40,665 nt of DNA from a virus, in IMG/VR virus record IMGVR_UViG_3300050821_004084, positions 1-40,665 of that record. One strand, given 5' to 3'. Both the position numbers and the translations under genes were made by a program. This document shows, piece by piece, positions 8,944 to 38,632 of the stretch (positions within the stretch are counted from its first letter, which is position 1; each line of letters starts with the position of its first letter). Under the pieces are notes generated by a model. The model was not told the origin of the DNA. It was given only the letters and a program-made list of their open reading frames with translations, and ran no database searches.

Positions 8944-9831
8944 ATGAACAAACAAGCTACGAAGCAGCAAGCAGTTAAGCCAGCGCAGCAGAATCAAGCG
9001 ATCGAGAAACGAAGCAGCAACGCGATCACAGAAGTACCAGACTATCTTCGCCGTAAGCCAGGCGTCGGAGCCGCCGGTTTCGACGAAGTCGAGCAAGGCG
9101 ATCTGACGCTACCGCGCCTCGGGTTGTGTCAAGCTCTCAACCCGCAACGCGATGCGACTGACCCGAAGTACATCGAAGGACTTGAAGAAGGCGAGTATTT
9201 CAACTCCCTGACGGGCGAGAACTATGGCGCAGAGGTAAAGATCGTACCACTGCTTTTCTACAAAAATCGCATTTTTTTCCGCGACAAGAAAAAAGGTGGC
9301 GGTATGCTTTGCCGAAGCGATGACATGAAACACGGCTCAGTCGAGCGCAGCGACTACAAAGAAGGCACATACGGCGGTGATTGCTTGACATGCAAGATGA
9401 ATCAGTTCGGCTCTGCGCGCAACGGCGAAGGGAAAGGAAAAGCCTGCACTGAGTTCTATAACTTCCCTTCGCTCGTCGTAATCGAAAACGCTGTGCGGCC
9501 AGAAAACTTAGTCGTTGCTTCGCTGAAGTCGAGCAACGTGCCGGCAGCGAAAGATTGGCTCGCAAAGATGCGGCTTCGTCAGATCGACATGTTCGGCGGT
9601 ATATACGATCTGACAAGCAAAAAAAAGAAGTTTACAGAAGGTTCTGCGTTCGTCACGCTCGTCGAACCGGCCGGAAACGTCTCGCTTGAAATGTATCAGT
9701 CAGCTAAAGTAGCACACGAAGCGATGTCGTCGCTCAGGCGGCAAGGCCGCTTGCATGTTGATGTCGAAGACTTAGAGCCGGGCGCAGACGACCCTGGTGC
9801 AGAAGAAAACGGCAAGAAAACACCATTCTAG
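8944..9831 (+). CDS. conserved phage protein, 295 residues, central Cys cluster; possible ssDNA-binding role
   Basis: A strong leader (AAAAGGAGAATCAAA before ATG 8944), almost the same as that of the DUF932 gene, suggests high expression. Residues 1-35 are Gln/Lys-rich and disordered. The core begins Leu-Pro-Arg-Leu-Gly-Leu-Cys-Gln. A cluster of Cys (Met-Leu-Cys-Arg-Ser, then Gly-Asp-Cys-Leu-Thr-Cys and a later Lys-Ala-Cys) suggests a metal site. The C terminus is acidic (Glu-Asp-Leu-Glu-Pro-Gly-Ala-Asp-Asp) with a terminal Phe, as often seen in single-strand DNA-binding proteins. That role is inference; I do not recognise the family with certainty. Its stop shares CTAG with the convergent gene. 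Confidence 0.7.
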   Translation: MNKQATKQQAVKPAQQNQAIEKRSSNAITEVPDYLRRKPGVGAAGFDEVEQGDLTLPRLGLCQALNPQRDATDPKYIEGLEEGEYFNSLTGENYGAEVKIVPLLFYKNRIFFRDKKKGGGMLCRSDDMKHGSVERSDYKEGTYGGDCLTCKMNQFGSARNGEGKGKACTEFYNFPSLVVIENAVRPENLVVASLKSSNVPAAKDWLAKMRLRQIDMFGGIYDLTSKKKKFTEGSAFVTLVEPAGNVSLEMYQSAKVAHEAMSSLRRQGRLHVDVEDLEPGADDPGAEENGKKTPF

Positions 9832-18086: not shown

Positions 18087-18542
18087 CTACTTCAACTCCT
18101 TCAAGTATTTCACTTCCATCTTGCGAAACCCGAAGCGCTCGTAGATTGCGCCGATCTTGTCGTCAGGCGCTGAGACTTGAAAATCTCGACAGCCAAGCTC
18201 GCGCGCGATACGCTCAGCTTCCCACAAAAGCTGAATGCCAGCGCCGCCTTTGCGGTAATCTTTTTCGACAAACCACATCAGCTCGTCTGCTGTAACTGTG
18301 CCGCTGAATGGATGGGCAACGATGAGCATGCCAAAGACGCCCGTTATGCGGGCAGCTGCGCCGTCGTTCGAATGTTCTTCCCACAATAGAATATTGCCGC
18401 CGCCGTGTATAAGTTGAAGCGCAAGCTCGTACGTCTTCTTCGGATTATCTACAATCACACTAGCGTACGGGCCGTCGATGAGAGACTGAGAGCCAAGCTC
18501 ACAGATGCGCGGCACATCGGCAGATGTTGCTAGACGAATCAT
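18087..18542 (-). CDS. GNAT-family N-acyltransferase, coupled to an ACP gene
   Basis: 151 residues, a full single GNAT domain. It starts Met-Ile-Arg-Leu-Ala-Thr-Ser-Ala-Asp-Val-Pro (first strand and helix) and has the pyrophosphate-binding loop Arg-Lys-Gly-Gly-Ala-Gly near residue 97, within Asp-Tyr-Arg-Lys-Gly-Gly-Ala-Gly-Ile-Gln-Leu-Leu. It ends with Ala-Ile-Tyr-Glu-Arg-Phe-Gly-Phe, the usual last motif. The family transfers acyl groups from CoA, and in some branches from acyl-ACP, to amines. Its ATG overlaps the stop of the acyl carrier protein gene (ATGA), so the two are made together; acyl-ACP is therefore a plausible donor. The acceptor is unknown. Phage GNATs also occur as virion or host-modifying proteins. 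Confidence 0.85.
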   Translation of the reverse strand: MIRLATSADVPRICELGSQSLIDGPYASVIVDNPKKTYELALQLIHGGGNILLWEEHSNDGAAARITGVFGMLIVAHPFSGTVTADELMWFVEKDYRKGGAGIQLLWEAERIARELGCRDFQVSAPDDKIGAIYERFGFRKMEVKYLKELK

Positions 18543-18787
18543 CGCGGGTGCGCCTCAATATACTTCACAACGTCTTGAACTGTCAGAATCTTCTGCATGT
18601 CGTTTTCTTCGAGCGTGAGACCGAATTCGCCTTCTATCTCCATGACTAAGTTCAGCATTTCAAGAGAATCAGTCACGAGCGAAACGAGCGTTGTCGAAGC
18701 TTTCAGCTCTTCGACAGCGACGCCTGTCTCTGATGAGACAACTTCTCTGACGCGCGCTAGAACGCTTGAAGCGTGATGCGTTTCCAT
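18539..18787 (-). CDS. acyl carrier protein
   Basis: 82 residues, the normal ACP length. The ATG at 18787 has GGGAAG upstream; a longer frame to 18916 is shadow. Asp-Ser-Leu-Glu puts the phosphopantetheine-bearing Ser at residue 41. Flanking helices match the family: Val-Arg-Glu-Val-Val, Thr-Gly-Val-Ala-Val-Glu-Glu-Leu before it, and Leu-Val-Met-Glu-Ile-Glu-Gly-Glu-Phe-Gly-Leu after it, then Leu-Thr-Val-Gln-Asp-Val-Val-Lys-Tyr-Ile. The host 4'-phosphopantetheinyl transferase would have to activate it, as none is encoded here. It overlaps the preceding gene by 31 bp and the GNAT gene by 4 bp. An ACP in a virion gene cluster is unusual. Confidence 0.9.
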   Translation of the reverse strand: METHHASSVLARVREVVSSETGVAVEELKASTTLVSLVTDSLEMLNLVMEIEGEFGLTLEENDMQKILTVQDVVKYIEAHPR

Positions 18788-19008
18788 TGATTCTTCCCTG
18801 TACTTACATACAGATAATTCTGATCGAAAGCAAACGCGCCGCCGCTCGCTATCGTTACGATCGACGAAGCTGGCGGCGGATTCGCGTTTGCTGGAAATTT
18901 TAGAGTTGTCCACCAATTCACAAACATTTGCGCCCAGCCGGAAATGAACGCGCCTTTCTCGTCGAGCGGCTTCGTGTTCAATGGTGCAGGCGATACGGCT
19001 AGCGGCAT
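18757..19008 (-). CDS. hypothetical small structural-region protein, 83 residues
   Basis: ATG 19008, just after the gp10-like stop. It begins with a Pro-rich arm (Met-Pro-Leu-Ala-Val-Ser-Pro-Ala-Pro-Leu), then Trp-Ala-Gln-Met-Phe-Val-Asn-Trp-Trp-Thr. It ends with a beta-like part (Gly-Gly-Ala-Phe-Ala-Phe-Asp-Gln-Asn-Tyr-Leu-Tyr-Val) that ends Trp-Lys-Arg-Ile. Small proteins of this type commonly follow tail genes in podoviruses. It may be a minor virion part or a short tail-needle accessory; I do not recognise it firmly. Confidence 0.6.
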   Translation of the reverse strand: MPLAVSPAPLNTKPLDEKGAFISGWAQMFVNWWTTLKFPANANPPPASSIVTIASGGAFAFDQNYLYVSTGKNQWKRITLQAF

Positions 19009-35054: not shown

Positions 35055-36413
35055 TTAACTCCACGCGCTTACAGGCCTGACAGCCGGCGCTTGCTCTCTC
35101 GGCTTCTGAAGCTCGCGTATCGAAACTGCAAGCGTTCTGAAAGCATCTGCATCGTGCGAAGCCCAATCGTGCAACGGCTTTCTCGAATACGTTCGCAGCT
35201 CGTTGTCGTACTCGTACTGATACGAACGCAGACCGCGAAGACCGACAGTTTGCTTCGTAGCAGGCAGTACATAGTTGCATCTCTCGCTGTCGAAGTAACA
35301 TTTAGCGAGCACTGCCCTGACAGCCGCAATACCATCTTCGACGCTGAGTTGCTTCGCGCAACGCACGCGATCGCGGCCGAAAATAGCACCGAGCTGTTCT
35401 TGGATAGACCGGCCACTGCCTAGCTCGCGCGCAGCGCCGTCCCACGGAAGGGTGTGCATCGAGTAATGATATTCGCGCTCTTGCAGCTGCTTGACGTAAT
35501 ACGCAAGCGACTCAAGCTCACCTGCGACGTAATCAATCACCCGATACTCCATTGGAAACGATTGCGCCATCCAGATTCGCGTGTGAGCAGGGCCGATGTC
35601 CCAGAACGTCTGCACCGGCTTCGTCGGGTCGTACGGCACGCGGGCCGTCAGCCGCCCTTGCTGCTCTGCAAGCTGAAGCTCTTTCTTGTAGACAGCACCT
35701 TCGACTGTAGAGCGGCACGTGCCTTCATATATGTGCTGGCACTCGTCATGATCTCTGCGCAGTAGATCGTCGCGCTCTTTCTTCAACACGTCAGGGAAAA
35801 AGGGATTGTCGTGCCAGTTGACGAATACGACTTGCGAACTTTGCGGCCTGTTCTGCTCCACTGCAAACAGCTTGTAAACTTCATCGTCTTCGAATTCGGG
35901 GTTAAAATCAAACCACAACTCACTGCCATACTTCTTATCTTTGATGACGATGTCTCGACGCAGTGTAGGGAAGACGACGTTCAACGAACGCTTCGACATT
36001 GCTTCAGCTTGCGAACCCCAAGCGATGTGAACGCCTTCGTAACTTTTCAAGTTGTCGACTGATTGACGAACGCCGGCAAAGAAAAACTCAGTGCCGTTCG
36101 CGCCGATGATGTTCTTTTGCTGAATGCGATAAAACGAACTGAGTTGAAGCAAACGAATCTGATCTGTCAAGAGCTGATGCACAGACTCTTCGATCGAACG
36201 CATCGTCTCGCGATAGCATAAGACGCGAATGCCGTCACGACCGTACTGCTCTGACCAGCCGGGCCACAACAGATCGGGTTGCTTGCCGATCAGCAACAGT
36301 GCACGGGCGATCGACCACGACTTTGCAGAACCTCTGCCGCCGTATGCGACTTTGTAGCGAGACGGCGTGAAGAGAAACTCCAACTTCTCAGGGAATTCGA
36401 CGTTAACCAGCAT
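35055..36413 (-). CDS. terminase large subunit
   Basis: 452 residues from ATG 36413, which overlaps the small-subunit stop by 11 bp; the frame further upstream is a shadow. The Walker A loop is Gly-Gly-Arg-Gly-Ser-Ala-Lys-Ser (25-32). The Walker B region reads Ile-Ala-Trp-Gly-Ser-Gln-Ala-Glu-Ala-Met-Ser, where Glu-Glu is usual. The nuclease domain has Phe-Trp-Asp-Ile-Gly, Leu-Pro-Trp-Asp-Gly, and His-Asp-Trp-Ala-Ser-His-Asp-Ala-Asp-Ala-Phe, the three acidic centres of the RNase-H-like fold. It drives ATP-dependent DNA packaging and cutting. Confidence 0.93.
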   Translation of the reverse strand: MLVNVEFPEKLEFLFTPSRYKVAYGGRGSAKSWSIARALLLIGKQPDLLWPGWSEQYGRDGIRVLCYRETMRSIEESVHQLLTDQIRLLQLSSFYRIQQKNIIGANGTEFFFAGVRQSVDNLKSYEGVHIAWGSQAEAMSKRSLNVVFPTLRRDIVIKDKKYGSELWFDFNPEFEDDEVYKLFAVEQNRPQSSQVVFVNWHDNPFFPDVLKKERDDLLRRDHDECQHIYEGTCRSTVEGAVYKKELQLAEQQGRLTARVPYDPTKPVQTFWDIGPAHTRIWMAQSFPMEYRVIDYVAGELESLAYYVKQLQEREYHYSMHTLPWDGAARELGSGRSIQEQLGAIFGRDRVRCAKQLSVEDGIAAVRAVLAKCYFDSERCNYVLPATKQTVGLRGLRSYQYEYDNELRTYSRKPLHDWASHDADAFRTLAVSIRELQKPREQAPAVRPVSAWS

Positions 36414-36744
36414 CTTTAGATCGCTTGTTGACGAAAGTGATCGTGTGCTCGACTGGGCCACCGTCTTCGCCTGTGTGCTCGATCTGCTGCTTGACAGGCC
36501 CATCAGTGCGATCAGCAAGCTCGCGAAGATGGGCAACACTGCCGCGCTTCGACTGAGCGAACGCAGCTTTAATAACAGCTGGCACGTCTTCTGGATGTTC
36601 TTCGATGTGTTTTCTGATTGCTTCGAGAAATGGTTTGCTTTTTGGACGCCCAGTCGTTGAGCGGCGCGGATCATCAACGCCAGTAAACGGCTTAAGATTC
36701 GCAAGCTGCTTCGCTCTGTTCTCGCTCTTTCGAGAGAGAGCCAC
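36403..36744 (-). CDS. terminase small subunit candidate, 113 residues
   Basis: Starts at a GTG, first late gene, immediately upstream of the large subunit. The N-terminal Leu-Lys-Pro-Phe-Thr-Gly ... Gly-Arg-Pro-Lys-Ser-Lys-Pro-Phe motif is that of the DUF5681-type proteins found at the terminase position. Residues about 38-80 form helices (Ala-Ile-Arg-Lys-His-Ile, Val-Ile-Lys-Ala-Ala-Phe-Ala). It recognises the packaging site by analogy. A large inverted repeat lies 28 bp upstream of its start. Confidence 0.75.
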   Translation of the reverse strand: MALSRKSENRAKQLANLKPFTGVDDPRRSTTGRPKSKPFLEAIRKHIEEHPEDVPAVIKAAFAQSKRGSVAHLRELADRTDGPVKQQIEHTGEDGGPVEHTITFVNKRSKDAG

Positions 36745-36771
36745 ACTATGCTGTCTCCGATTGTAGGGGTG

Positions 36772-36810
36772 CGCGCGGCGAACAGTGCAGGATTAAACCG
36801 TCGCCGCGCG
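36772..36810. repeat. 10-bp perfect inverted repeat upstream of small terminase
   Basis: CGCGCGGCGA (36772-36781) is the exact reverse complement of TCGCCGCGCG (36801-36810), with a 19-base loop. It lies 28 bp before the small-terminase start, in its upstream leader. Candidate packaging-initiation site, 5'-UTR hairpin, or operator; no T-run follows, so a terminator is unlikely. Confidence 0.7.
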
Positions 36811-36911
36811 GCTTTGAGTGTCGAAGAGAATCAAGTACGCTAGTCACGTTAGCTAGAGAAGCTACGCGCAGCGCTTCGAGTAAGTCTAGCGAAATCGCGT
36901 TCGAGCAAAGT

Positions 36912-37070
36912 GCTTACAATTCCCCCGCGGGGGGAGTGCGTGCAAGCTAAAGTACATGTAAGCGTATGTAAGCGTAATAGTACTAAGTCCTTTATATAGA
37001 GAGCTTTCTCTCTCACACACTGTCGCTTTTGCTTACATGTAAGCACTTCTCTAAAACGTCATTTGCTTAC
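36912..37070. promoter_or_regulatory. cluster of six GTAAGC/GCTTAC operator half-sites
   Basis: GCTTAC at 36912-36917, 37031-37036 and 37065-37070; GTAAGC at 36958-36963, 36968-36973 and 37039-37044. The pair at 36956-36975 is an exact tandem of ATGTAAGCGT with 10-bp spacing, one helical turn. Sites at 37031-37044 form the perfect 14-bp palindrome GCTTACATGTAAGC. TACATGTAAGC occurs twice (36953, 37034). This is the layout of binding sites for a ribbon-helix-helix repressor, and such a gene starts at 37165. Confidence 0.7.
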
Positions 37071-37164
37071 AATCGCTTCTTAGAAACGAGCAGTAAAAAT
37101 AGTACTTTACTTCTTCTTTTATTTAATATAGAGTGCGCGTTTTTACGTCAAGAAAGGAACGTGA

Positions 37165-37347
37165 ATGGGAAACGCGCCGCAGCGCGGAAAGTCTATAGTC
37201 ATCAACCATCCTCCATTAGAGCTTCGCAAGCGCATCGAGGCCGAAGCTGAGCTGCAGAATCGCTCGATCAATAATCTCCTCATAGTCATATTAACGAAGT
37301 TCTTTCGCTCTGTAGATCAGCAAGAGGCGGGGCATGCCCAAAGATGA
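37165..37347 (+). CDS. ribbon-helix-helix (Arc/MetJ-type) regulator, 60 residues
   Basis: The ATG has AAAGGA upstream. A short strand (Lys-Ser-Ile-Val-Ile-Asn-His-Pro) is followed by two helices (Leu-Arg-Lys-Arg-Ile-Glu-Ala-Glu-Ala-Glu, then Asn-Arg-Ser-Ile-Asn-Asn-Leu-Leu-Ile-Val-Ile-Leu). This is the Arc layout, including the Asn-Arg-Ser-(Val/Ile)-Asn turn seen in Arc. Such proteins bind DNA as dimers at short repeated sites. It is the first gene of the rightward unit, beside the half-site cluster; it probably represses its own unit and perhaps the divergent late unit. Its stop overlaps the next gene. Confidence 0.82.
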   Translation: MGNAPQRGKSIVINHPPLELRKRIEAEAELQNRSINNLLIVILTKFFRSVDQQEAGHAQR

Positions 37348-38632
37348 GCGCAAGAAACGAAAGTCCGTTGAACAGCAGCCTGAAGTTGAAGAGCAGCTTT
37401 GGCCGGCAGGCGAGCACGCAGCTAAGCCAGAAAAGCTATTCGAACTCGTCGAAGAGCTTGCAGAGAAAGAGACGCGCGAGCGCGTCGAGAAGCTCGAAAA
37501 TGAATACGAGAAAGCGAAGAAGATTGCCGAGTCGAACGGCGATGTTGGCCTACAAGACATGCCTGAAACAGTGCTCGACGGCCGTCTCGGTGAAATCTGC
37601 GAGCGTTACATGCTTTTAGGGAAGCGCTTCCCGTTAGCGTATGCATGGCCTGCGCTATTGGCTGTTGCTTCGGCTTTAGCGCCTCGCTACACAGCGAAGC
37701 AGCAGTTGAATCTCTACTGCGCGCTTGCTGGCCCGATACATAGCGGCAAATCGCAAGCGATTGAAGCAGCGCAGCAGTTGTTATCGATAGAACAGCCTGT
37801 ATTACTAAACATCATGGCAGGTAGCGCAGAAGCTCTCGTCAGAAAATGCAAAGACGCAGAAGCAAAGCCGCGTCTTTTTTCCCCCGACGAGTTAGGTCAC
37901 TTACTTGAAAAATCTCACATCGAGAATGCTTCGTTTCCGTATTTGCTGAACCGCGCTTTTTATTCGACTGCGTTCGAAGTTCACATGGGGAGAAAAGAAG
38001 TTGCGCAATTCAACGCTTCGCTTTCGATACTCGGCGGTCTTGTCGATTCGCGCTTCGAAGATTTATTCTCACACTCGACGACAGGCGGCTTATATGATCG
38101 CTTTGCGTTCGGAGCTTTTCCGGGCGGTTTCAAATTCGATTATTTTCCATTTGAAGCCCGCGCAGCTGATTATGAAACGAAAAGTGTTTACATACATGAA
38201 GACGTATGGGTCGAGAAAGCCGCTTGGCTCGTTGAAGACAGCGAGCTTGAGCCACGCGTCGTAGAGATCGCGATACGCGCTGCTGCTGTGTGCGCAGCGC
38301 ATGACGGTCGCACGCTTCTGACAGCTGCCCAACTTGCGCCAGCACGCGCTTTCGCAGAATATCAGAAGCGCATACGCAGACTATTGAAGCCGAACGAGGG
38401 TGAGAACCTAGAAGGTAAGATCGCACTGAAGATTCTCGCTTATCTCAAGCGCTACGAAGGCAAGTACGTCGCGAAGCGCAAACTGCTCATGGACATCGGT
38501 GCGTACCGCAGCGGGCCGTCGGTCGCCGAGCGCGCGTTGAGCGTGCTGCACGCGAACGGCGATATAGAGATCACGAAAACGCGGCCAGTGCTTGTGCGAT
38601 TACTGATCGAAGACGAAGGAGAACCTGCATGA
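37334..38632 (+). CDS. DUF3987-like P-loop ATPase
   Basis: 432 residues. The Walker A is Gly-Pro-Ile-His-Ser-Gly-Lys-Ser (133-140); a Leu-Phe-Ser-Pro-Asp-Glu-Leu (181-187) forms the Walker B. The N-terminal 70 residues are charged and coiled. After the ATPase core come Asp-Arg-Phe and a C-terminal winged-helix-like part (Ile-Gly-Ala-Tyr-Arg-Ser-Gly-Pro-Ser-Val-Ala-Glu). Similar phage and plasmid proteins (DUF3987) are associated with replication initiation or primase-helicase work. It overlaps the RHH gene by 14 bp. Alternative: a related bacterial-defence type ATPase. Confidence 0.75.
   Translation: MPKDERKKRKSVEQQPEVEEQLWPAGEHAAKPEKLFELVEELAEKETRERVEKLENEYEKAKKIAESNGDVGLQDMPETVLDGRLGEICERYMLLGKRFPLAYAWPALLAVASALAPRYTAKQQLNLYCALAGPIHSGKSQAIEAAQQLLSIEQPVLLNIMAGSAEALVRKCKDAEAKPRLFSPDELGHLLEKSHIENASFPYLLNRAFYSTAFEVHMGRKEVAQFNASLSILGGLVDSRFEDLFSHSTTGGLYDRFAFGAFPGGFKFDYFPFEARAADYETKSVYIHEDVWVEKAAWLVEDSELEPRVVEIAIRAAAVCAAHDGRTLLTAAQLAPARAFAEYQKRIRRLLKPNEGENLEGKIALKILAYLKRYEGKYVAKRKLLMDIGAYRSGPSVAERALSVLHANGDIEITKTRPVLVRLLIEDEGEPA

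Follow-up and report, generated by a model that had tools for sequence, protein, structure and literature searches.

The Arc and Mnt proteins of the short-tailed phage P22 are small RHH proteins that control the immI antirepressor region via short operators. The alpha protein of phage P4, a primase-helicase, binds its origin through a C-terminal domain and is paired with short repeated sites. The origins of SaPI and PICI elements contain several short iterons in two sets around an AT-rich stretch, and the initiator helicase, which is sometimes fused to a primase (Rep or Pri-Rep), is encoded adjacent to them (PMC6092414, PMC7581432). In the E. coli PICI origins that have been compared, two iteron sets always surround the AT-rich region (PMC6092414), and the iterons are read by the C-terminal domain of the SaPI Rep protein (PMC7581432). 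In the CopG-RepB operon of pMV158 (PMC5717011) and the ORF56-ORF904 operon of pRN1 (PMC4234260), a small repressor is encoded first and the replication protein second, with CopG being an RHH protein.

The locus described here is located in a window of 40,665 nucleotides, which is the whole stretch of DNA that was analysed, and which belongs to a tailed soil phage with a P22-like portal. Like the SaPI and PICI origins, it has short repeated sites in two sets around an AT-rich stretch, with a candidate initiator helicase encoded next to them. Like the operons of pMV158 and pRN1, it has the gene for a small regulator first, followed by that for a replication protein. The organization that we propose, in which a C-terminal domain binds short repeated sites at an origin, is that of P4 alpha. 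The small regulator is RHH-like, and Arc and Mnt are RHH proteins of the phage whose portal this one resembles.

The divergent region and its repeated sites

A 98-bp exact direct repeat is present at both ends of the contig (1-98 and 40568-40665), and the contig is therefore probably complete. It closes on itself, with one early gene crossing the join (from 40323 onward and continuing at 2-850). The genes form two blocks, one running on the minus strand from 36744 down to 9828, and the other on the plus strand, starting at 37165, crossing the contig join, and ending at 9831. The minus-strand late block carries a probable terS, terL, the P22-like portal gene, and head, tail, and lysis genes. 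The plus-strand early block carries genes for the RHH protein, a 432-aa ATPase, a methyltransferase, a SNF2-type helicase, and others. The 420 bp between the blocks (36745-37164) are the sole divergent point of this two-operon genome, and promoters for both blocks are therefore expected in this gap. The first-pass annotation had likewise called the region divergent. A TerL search of genome contigs returned zero relatives and hence no link to a host. Elsewhere in the late operon (18087-18916, minus strand), a small acyl-carrier-protein-like gene sits beside a GNAT-like acetyltransferase gene, both recognized by eye, and these would represent unusual cargo for a phage.

No part of the genome is richer in AT than this gap at any window size tested (60-200 bp), and the minimum of the cumulative GC skew (36592) lies close to the gap. 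Both properties also fit plain divergent transcription and promoters. We set GC skew aside as evidence for an origin, given that it is confounded with gene orientation. The features of the region are as follows.

35055-36414, minus strand: terL (Terminase_3), with an ATG start
36403-36744, minus strand: small gene upstream of terL with a GTG start, probable terS and first late gene, assigned by position and sequence with no family hit
36759-36811, minus strand: GC-rich hairpin in the terS leader, immediately upstream of the gene
36912-36918, plus strand: array site 1, GCTTACA, left set (exact match)
36956-36975, minus strand: array sites 2 and 3, left set, a 10-bp direct tandem reading ATGTAAGCGT twice on the plus strand and GCTTACAT on the minus strand (exact match)
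36985-36998, no strand: AT box AAGTCCTTTATATA in the middle of the array, with one site set on either side, candidate melting site and/or late promoter
37030-37045, no strand: array sites 4 and 5, right set, a perfect 16-bp palindrome TGCTTACATGTAAGCA (exact match)
37065-37071, plus strand: array site 6, GCTTACA, right set (exact match)
37106-37134, plus strand: candidate early promoter TTTACT-N17-TAGAGT (TTTACT at 37106-37111, TAGAGT at 37129-37134), from a loose matrix scan
37165-37347, plus strand: gene for the 60-aa RHH (Arc/Mnt-like) regulator, first early gene, with weak profile matches
37334-38632, plus strand: gene for the 432-aa DUF3987/primase-helicase-like ATPase with a C-terminal winged helix, the proposed reader of the array

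The first-pass annotation had reported six GCTTAC/GTAAGC half-sites in about 160 bp, and all six are present as exact matches, at 36912 (+), 36958 (-), 36968 (-), 37031 (+), 37039 (-), and 37065 (+), with a span of 159 bp (36912-37070). An A follows GCTTAC in every one of them, and thus the repeat unit is at least GCTTACA. Three such sites flank the central AT box on each side. The 10-bp tandem had also been described correctly, as had two A/T-rich −10-like elements (TATATA, 36993-36998; TATAGA, 37127-37132). The palindrome is real, but its earlier description as a 14-mer (37031-37044) was too short by one base on each side. Likewise, the sites do lie upstream of the Arc-like gene, though the array ends about 95 bp short of its start codon, and the encoded small protein is indeed RHH-like, with the profile matches being weak.

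Six copies of GCTTACA in the 420-bp gap were equalled in none of 500 dinucleotide shuffles when scored over all 7-mers, and in none of 300 shuffles in a second run. A sliding scan with 300-bp windows identified this array as the strongest 7-mer cluster of the whole genome, and six of the eight genomic matches to [CT]GCTTACA[AT] are inside the array region. GCTTAC alone is frequent in the rest of the window (33 observed versus 19.6 expected), yet the count of half-sites elsewhere revealed no other such cluster. Mere occurrence is common, and only the clustering is special.

The strong GC-rich hairpin in the terS leader has counterparts in two related phages (L003 and L004, see below) whose sequences differ, and each is better than about 97% of shuffles. 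This element possibly serves to control the late genes from their leader.

Arrays in related phages

TerL searches, for which 35058-36407 served as the terL query, yielded close relatives of the window. Nine viral contigs that share this gene, giving ten phages with the window included, carry an array at the same place and with a similar layout, but with a different motif. Across the family, a core of 5-9 bp occurs in both orientations, with 5-10 sites per phage spread over 143-226 bp, and an AT box is found inside the array of every relative examined. Two site sets flank this box in L003, L004, L011, and L031, much as in the window, whereas they are unbalanced in L006 (one site left, seven right), L027 (one and six), and L034.

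The L004 array has five GCGTAC (TGCGTAC) sites in similar places, including a 10-bp tandem, and has no GCTTACA. A 10-bp tandem again occurs among the CGTAC sites of L003, a contig that ends inside the RHH gene and before the replication gene. The remaining motifs are AAGAGTAC in L006, AAGAGTGC in L014, CGTCAAAACG in L011, L027, and L031, and TGTAGAA in L012 and L034. In L034, the 6-mer GTAGAA occurs seven times, a count reached in 1 of 300 shuffles. The top 7-mer of L012 is the same as in L034, but the array of L012 taken by itself falls short of significance (140 of 300 shuffles). Clustering of short repeated sites beyond chance, as is characteristic of iteron-type origins, is therefore found in the window and in relatives such as L034. 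More distant relatives of the CHC2 and Prim-Pol proteins (about 28-54% identity) are accompanied by none of these arrays, and the pattern extends no further than the close family within these comparisons.

The replication protein is visible in nine of the ten phages and is of four types. A DUF3987-like protein is encoded in the window and in L004, where the counterpart has 425 aa and 65% identity. A Prim-Pol+AAA_25 protein is encoded in L006 and L014 (75% identity), a CHC2/Toprim+AAA_25 protein in L011, L027, and L031 (55-68% identity), and a Prim-Pol+VapE protein in L012 and L034 (68% identity). The motif groups coincide with these groups in all nine phages, with four motifs for four protein types. 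Co-variation of the sites with the encoded initiator, a further mark of iteron-type origins, is thus present in these nine phages.

The small regulator shows a different distribution. L004 has an RHH gene in the syntenic position, and its product is 41% identical to that of the window. The same place is occupied by HTH_17 proteins in L006/L007, L014, L011, L027, and L031. L012 and L034 have neither an RHH nor an HTH gene there, and their first early gene codes for a DUF3223 protein. As an observation in its own right, the HTH_17 genes that replace the RHH gene in L006, L011, L014, L027, and L031 are AlpA/excisionase-like, and the TerL proteins involved are 65-86% identical. In the Gram-negative PICI of one study (PMC6092414), the genes of the element are activated by AlpA.

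L011 separates the two candidate readers. Its HTH protein is 62-65% identical to those of L006 and L014 and only 34-35% identical to those of L027 and L031, but its array and replication protein are those of L027 and L031. Moreover, the recognition helix YTRVHLYNLI is identical in L011 and L014, whose array motifs are unrelated. The pairing of the window with L004 is compatible with co-variation of motif and regulator, whereas the wider family is discordant. The decisive contrast comes from one phage (L011) and one pair (L012 and L034) among the ten, and in the window/L004 group the RHH and replication proteins change together, such that the two readers are inseparable there.

TerL relatedness is likewise discordant with the motif. 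L012 and L027 have TerL proteins that are 91% identical and motifs that differ, whereas those of L006 and L014 are 66% identical and the motif class is the same. Therefore, the early module moves independently of the late genes. Within this module, the array stays with the replication gene despite the promoter and the regulator gene that lie between them.

The candidate early promoter of the window was recovered by a looser matrix scan after a stricter promoter/terminator scan had given nothing. Equivalent TTKACW elements are present at the same place in L003, L004, L006, L011, and L014. In these phages and in the window, the exact array sites end roughly 15 to 45 bp 5ˊ of the promoter. No exact site overlaps the best promoter match, and the gap in the window is about 35 bp. 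A simple repressor of the early promoter would not be expected at such a position, but the AT box in the middle of the array may act as a second promoter that is regulated. Separately, a block like GACGAGAGTAAGCGCTA in the left part of the gap is conserved among L004, L006, and L014 despite their different array types. Because it is kept between such phages, it is a separate element, perhaps part of the late promoter.

Candidate readers of the array

Because its motif tracks the replication protein across related phages and does not track the small regulator, the array is more likely to be a replication start site than a repressor switch. Specifically, we assign a probability of roughly 0.55 to the reading that it is an iteron-type replication origin, located in the divergent early/late control region and bound by the winged helix of the 432-aa protein. 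This domain spans residues 354-427, with a Z score of about 10 in a structure model that is poor outside the C-terminus. The DUF3987 match of the L004 counterpart scores 25.9 bits, which is below the Pfam cut-off of 27, and the helicase assignment is weak. A search with the 432-aa protein returned only L004 among viral contigs and zero matches among phage records.

From these comparisons we infer how such an origin might operate. The helicase-like early protein would bind the three GCTTACA sites on each side of the AT box via its C-terminal winged helix, and oligomers would assemble on both site sets and melt the AT-rich DNA that separates and adjoins these sets. Since promoters serving both operons surround the sites, binding of the initiator would probably also affect transcription. 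A bolder version of this proposal, which we regard only as a tentative idea, is that the early/late switch consists of the replication initiator itself. Iteron binding would then both start replication and change transcription, and the array and its initiator would be exchanged as a cassette among phages that share late genes.

The foremost alternative, which we consider doubtful, is the one put forward by the first-pass annotation, in which RHH dimers bind GCTTACA cooperatively and switch between early and late transcription. A variant of it is autorepression of the early operon by these dimers. The RHH gene is adjacent and first in its operon, and sites spaced by 8 and 10 bp are appropriate for RHH dimers. 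In addition, the change of one base in the array of L004, which retains the 10-bp tandem, accompanies a change in the predicted base-contacting residues of the RHH protein as judged from the alignment (S10/V12/N14 in the window and P/L/R in L004). That annotation had also expected the half-sites to be conserved wherever the RHH gene is. By letter they are not conserved in L004, but this mismatch does not decide the matter, because a concerted one-base change is also expected from co-evolution with the RHH protein. What speaks against the RHH protein as the reader is that arrays of the same layout accompany HTH_17 proteins or no such regulator, that the motif follows the replication protein, and that the conserved early promoter is downstream of the exact sites and free of them. 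Of the earlier early/late switch reading, the divergent position and a plausible RHH regulator stand, whereas the assignment of the RHH protein as the reader lacks support. In agreement with the same annotation, no CI/Cro protein or integrase was found among the window proteins scanned against PHROGs, which were a subset of the ORFs.

The identity of the regulator itself comes from weak matches that agree with one another in being Arc/Mnt-like. In a search of solved structures, the best match to the 60-aa protein was Mnt (E=0.26), and the single match among phage records was an Arc-like repressor of Rhodococcus phage ReqiPine5 (E=0.06). Among viral contigs, the single sequence retrieved nothing and the two-sequence alignment retrieved only L004. 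The AlphaFold monomer is one long helix and speaks neither for nor against an RHH fold. We propose that this protein, encoded by the first gene of the operon, is probably a regulator of the replication operon in the manner of CopG or ORF56, and not the main reader of the array. Perhaps it acts on the array region too.

The last suggestion can be extended to a shared target, in which both proteins use the region and replication is coupled to the early-to-late change. For example, the iterons would be occupied by the replication protein, with the RHH protein binding a subset of them or a small operator of its own close to the early promoter. Operons that combine a small repressor with a replication protein are known (CopG-RepB of pMV158, PMC5717011; ORF56-ORF904 of pRN1, PMC4234260), and all promoters of this two-operon genome must be located in the gap or nearby. 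However, no second conserved motif was identified beside the early promoter, and we judge this arrangement improbable. Still less probable is that another early protein or a host factor reads the array. What was observed for the replication gene is co-inheritance, in a comparison that covered part of the early genes, but a single host factor poorly explains four unrelated motifs among phages whose TerL proteins are mostly 81-91% identical. Chance clustering, despite the mild over-representation of GCTTAC across the window, is rejected by the absence of an equal among 500 shuffles for the 7-mer, by the status of this array as the sole such cluster in the genome, and by the comparable arrays in relatives.

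A guess about a repressor has thereby become a testable claim about where replication starts in an uncultured phage family. Four initiator types, each matched to a different set of iterons, also occur naturally in these phages, whose late genes are shared. This series should be useful for studying origin recognition by initiator helicases and the movement of origin cassettes between phages. Should transcription also be under the control of the array, replication would be tied to the passage from early to late expression in phages for which no switch is known.

Comparison with known systems

Several differences distinguish this locus from the systems that it resembles. In P4, the protein family and the motif are different, and the origin is not known to lie in a divergent promoter region between terS and early genes. 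Arc and Mnt act through short operators, whereas the present locus has a six-site array next to replication genes. In the CopG-RepB and ORF56-ORF904 operons, the repressor targets the promoter of the operon, with the origin lying elsewhere, whereas the sites described here are upstream of the promoter core.

The SaPI and PICI origins are just 3ˊ of rep, whereas this array is 5ˊ of its operon, in the divergent promoter region of a tailed phage whose genome is probably complete. Given this difference in position relative to rep, we do not file the array as a SaPI/PICI origin, but only as one that would work like it. The 432-aa protein is likened to Rep by its design and not by sequence homology. 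On balance, the array would work most like an initiator-specific iteron origin, and its placement, where the early and late operons of a tailed phage diverge, is unusual.
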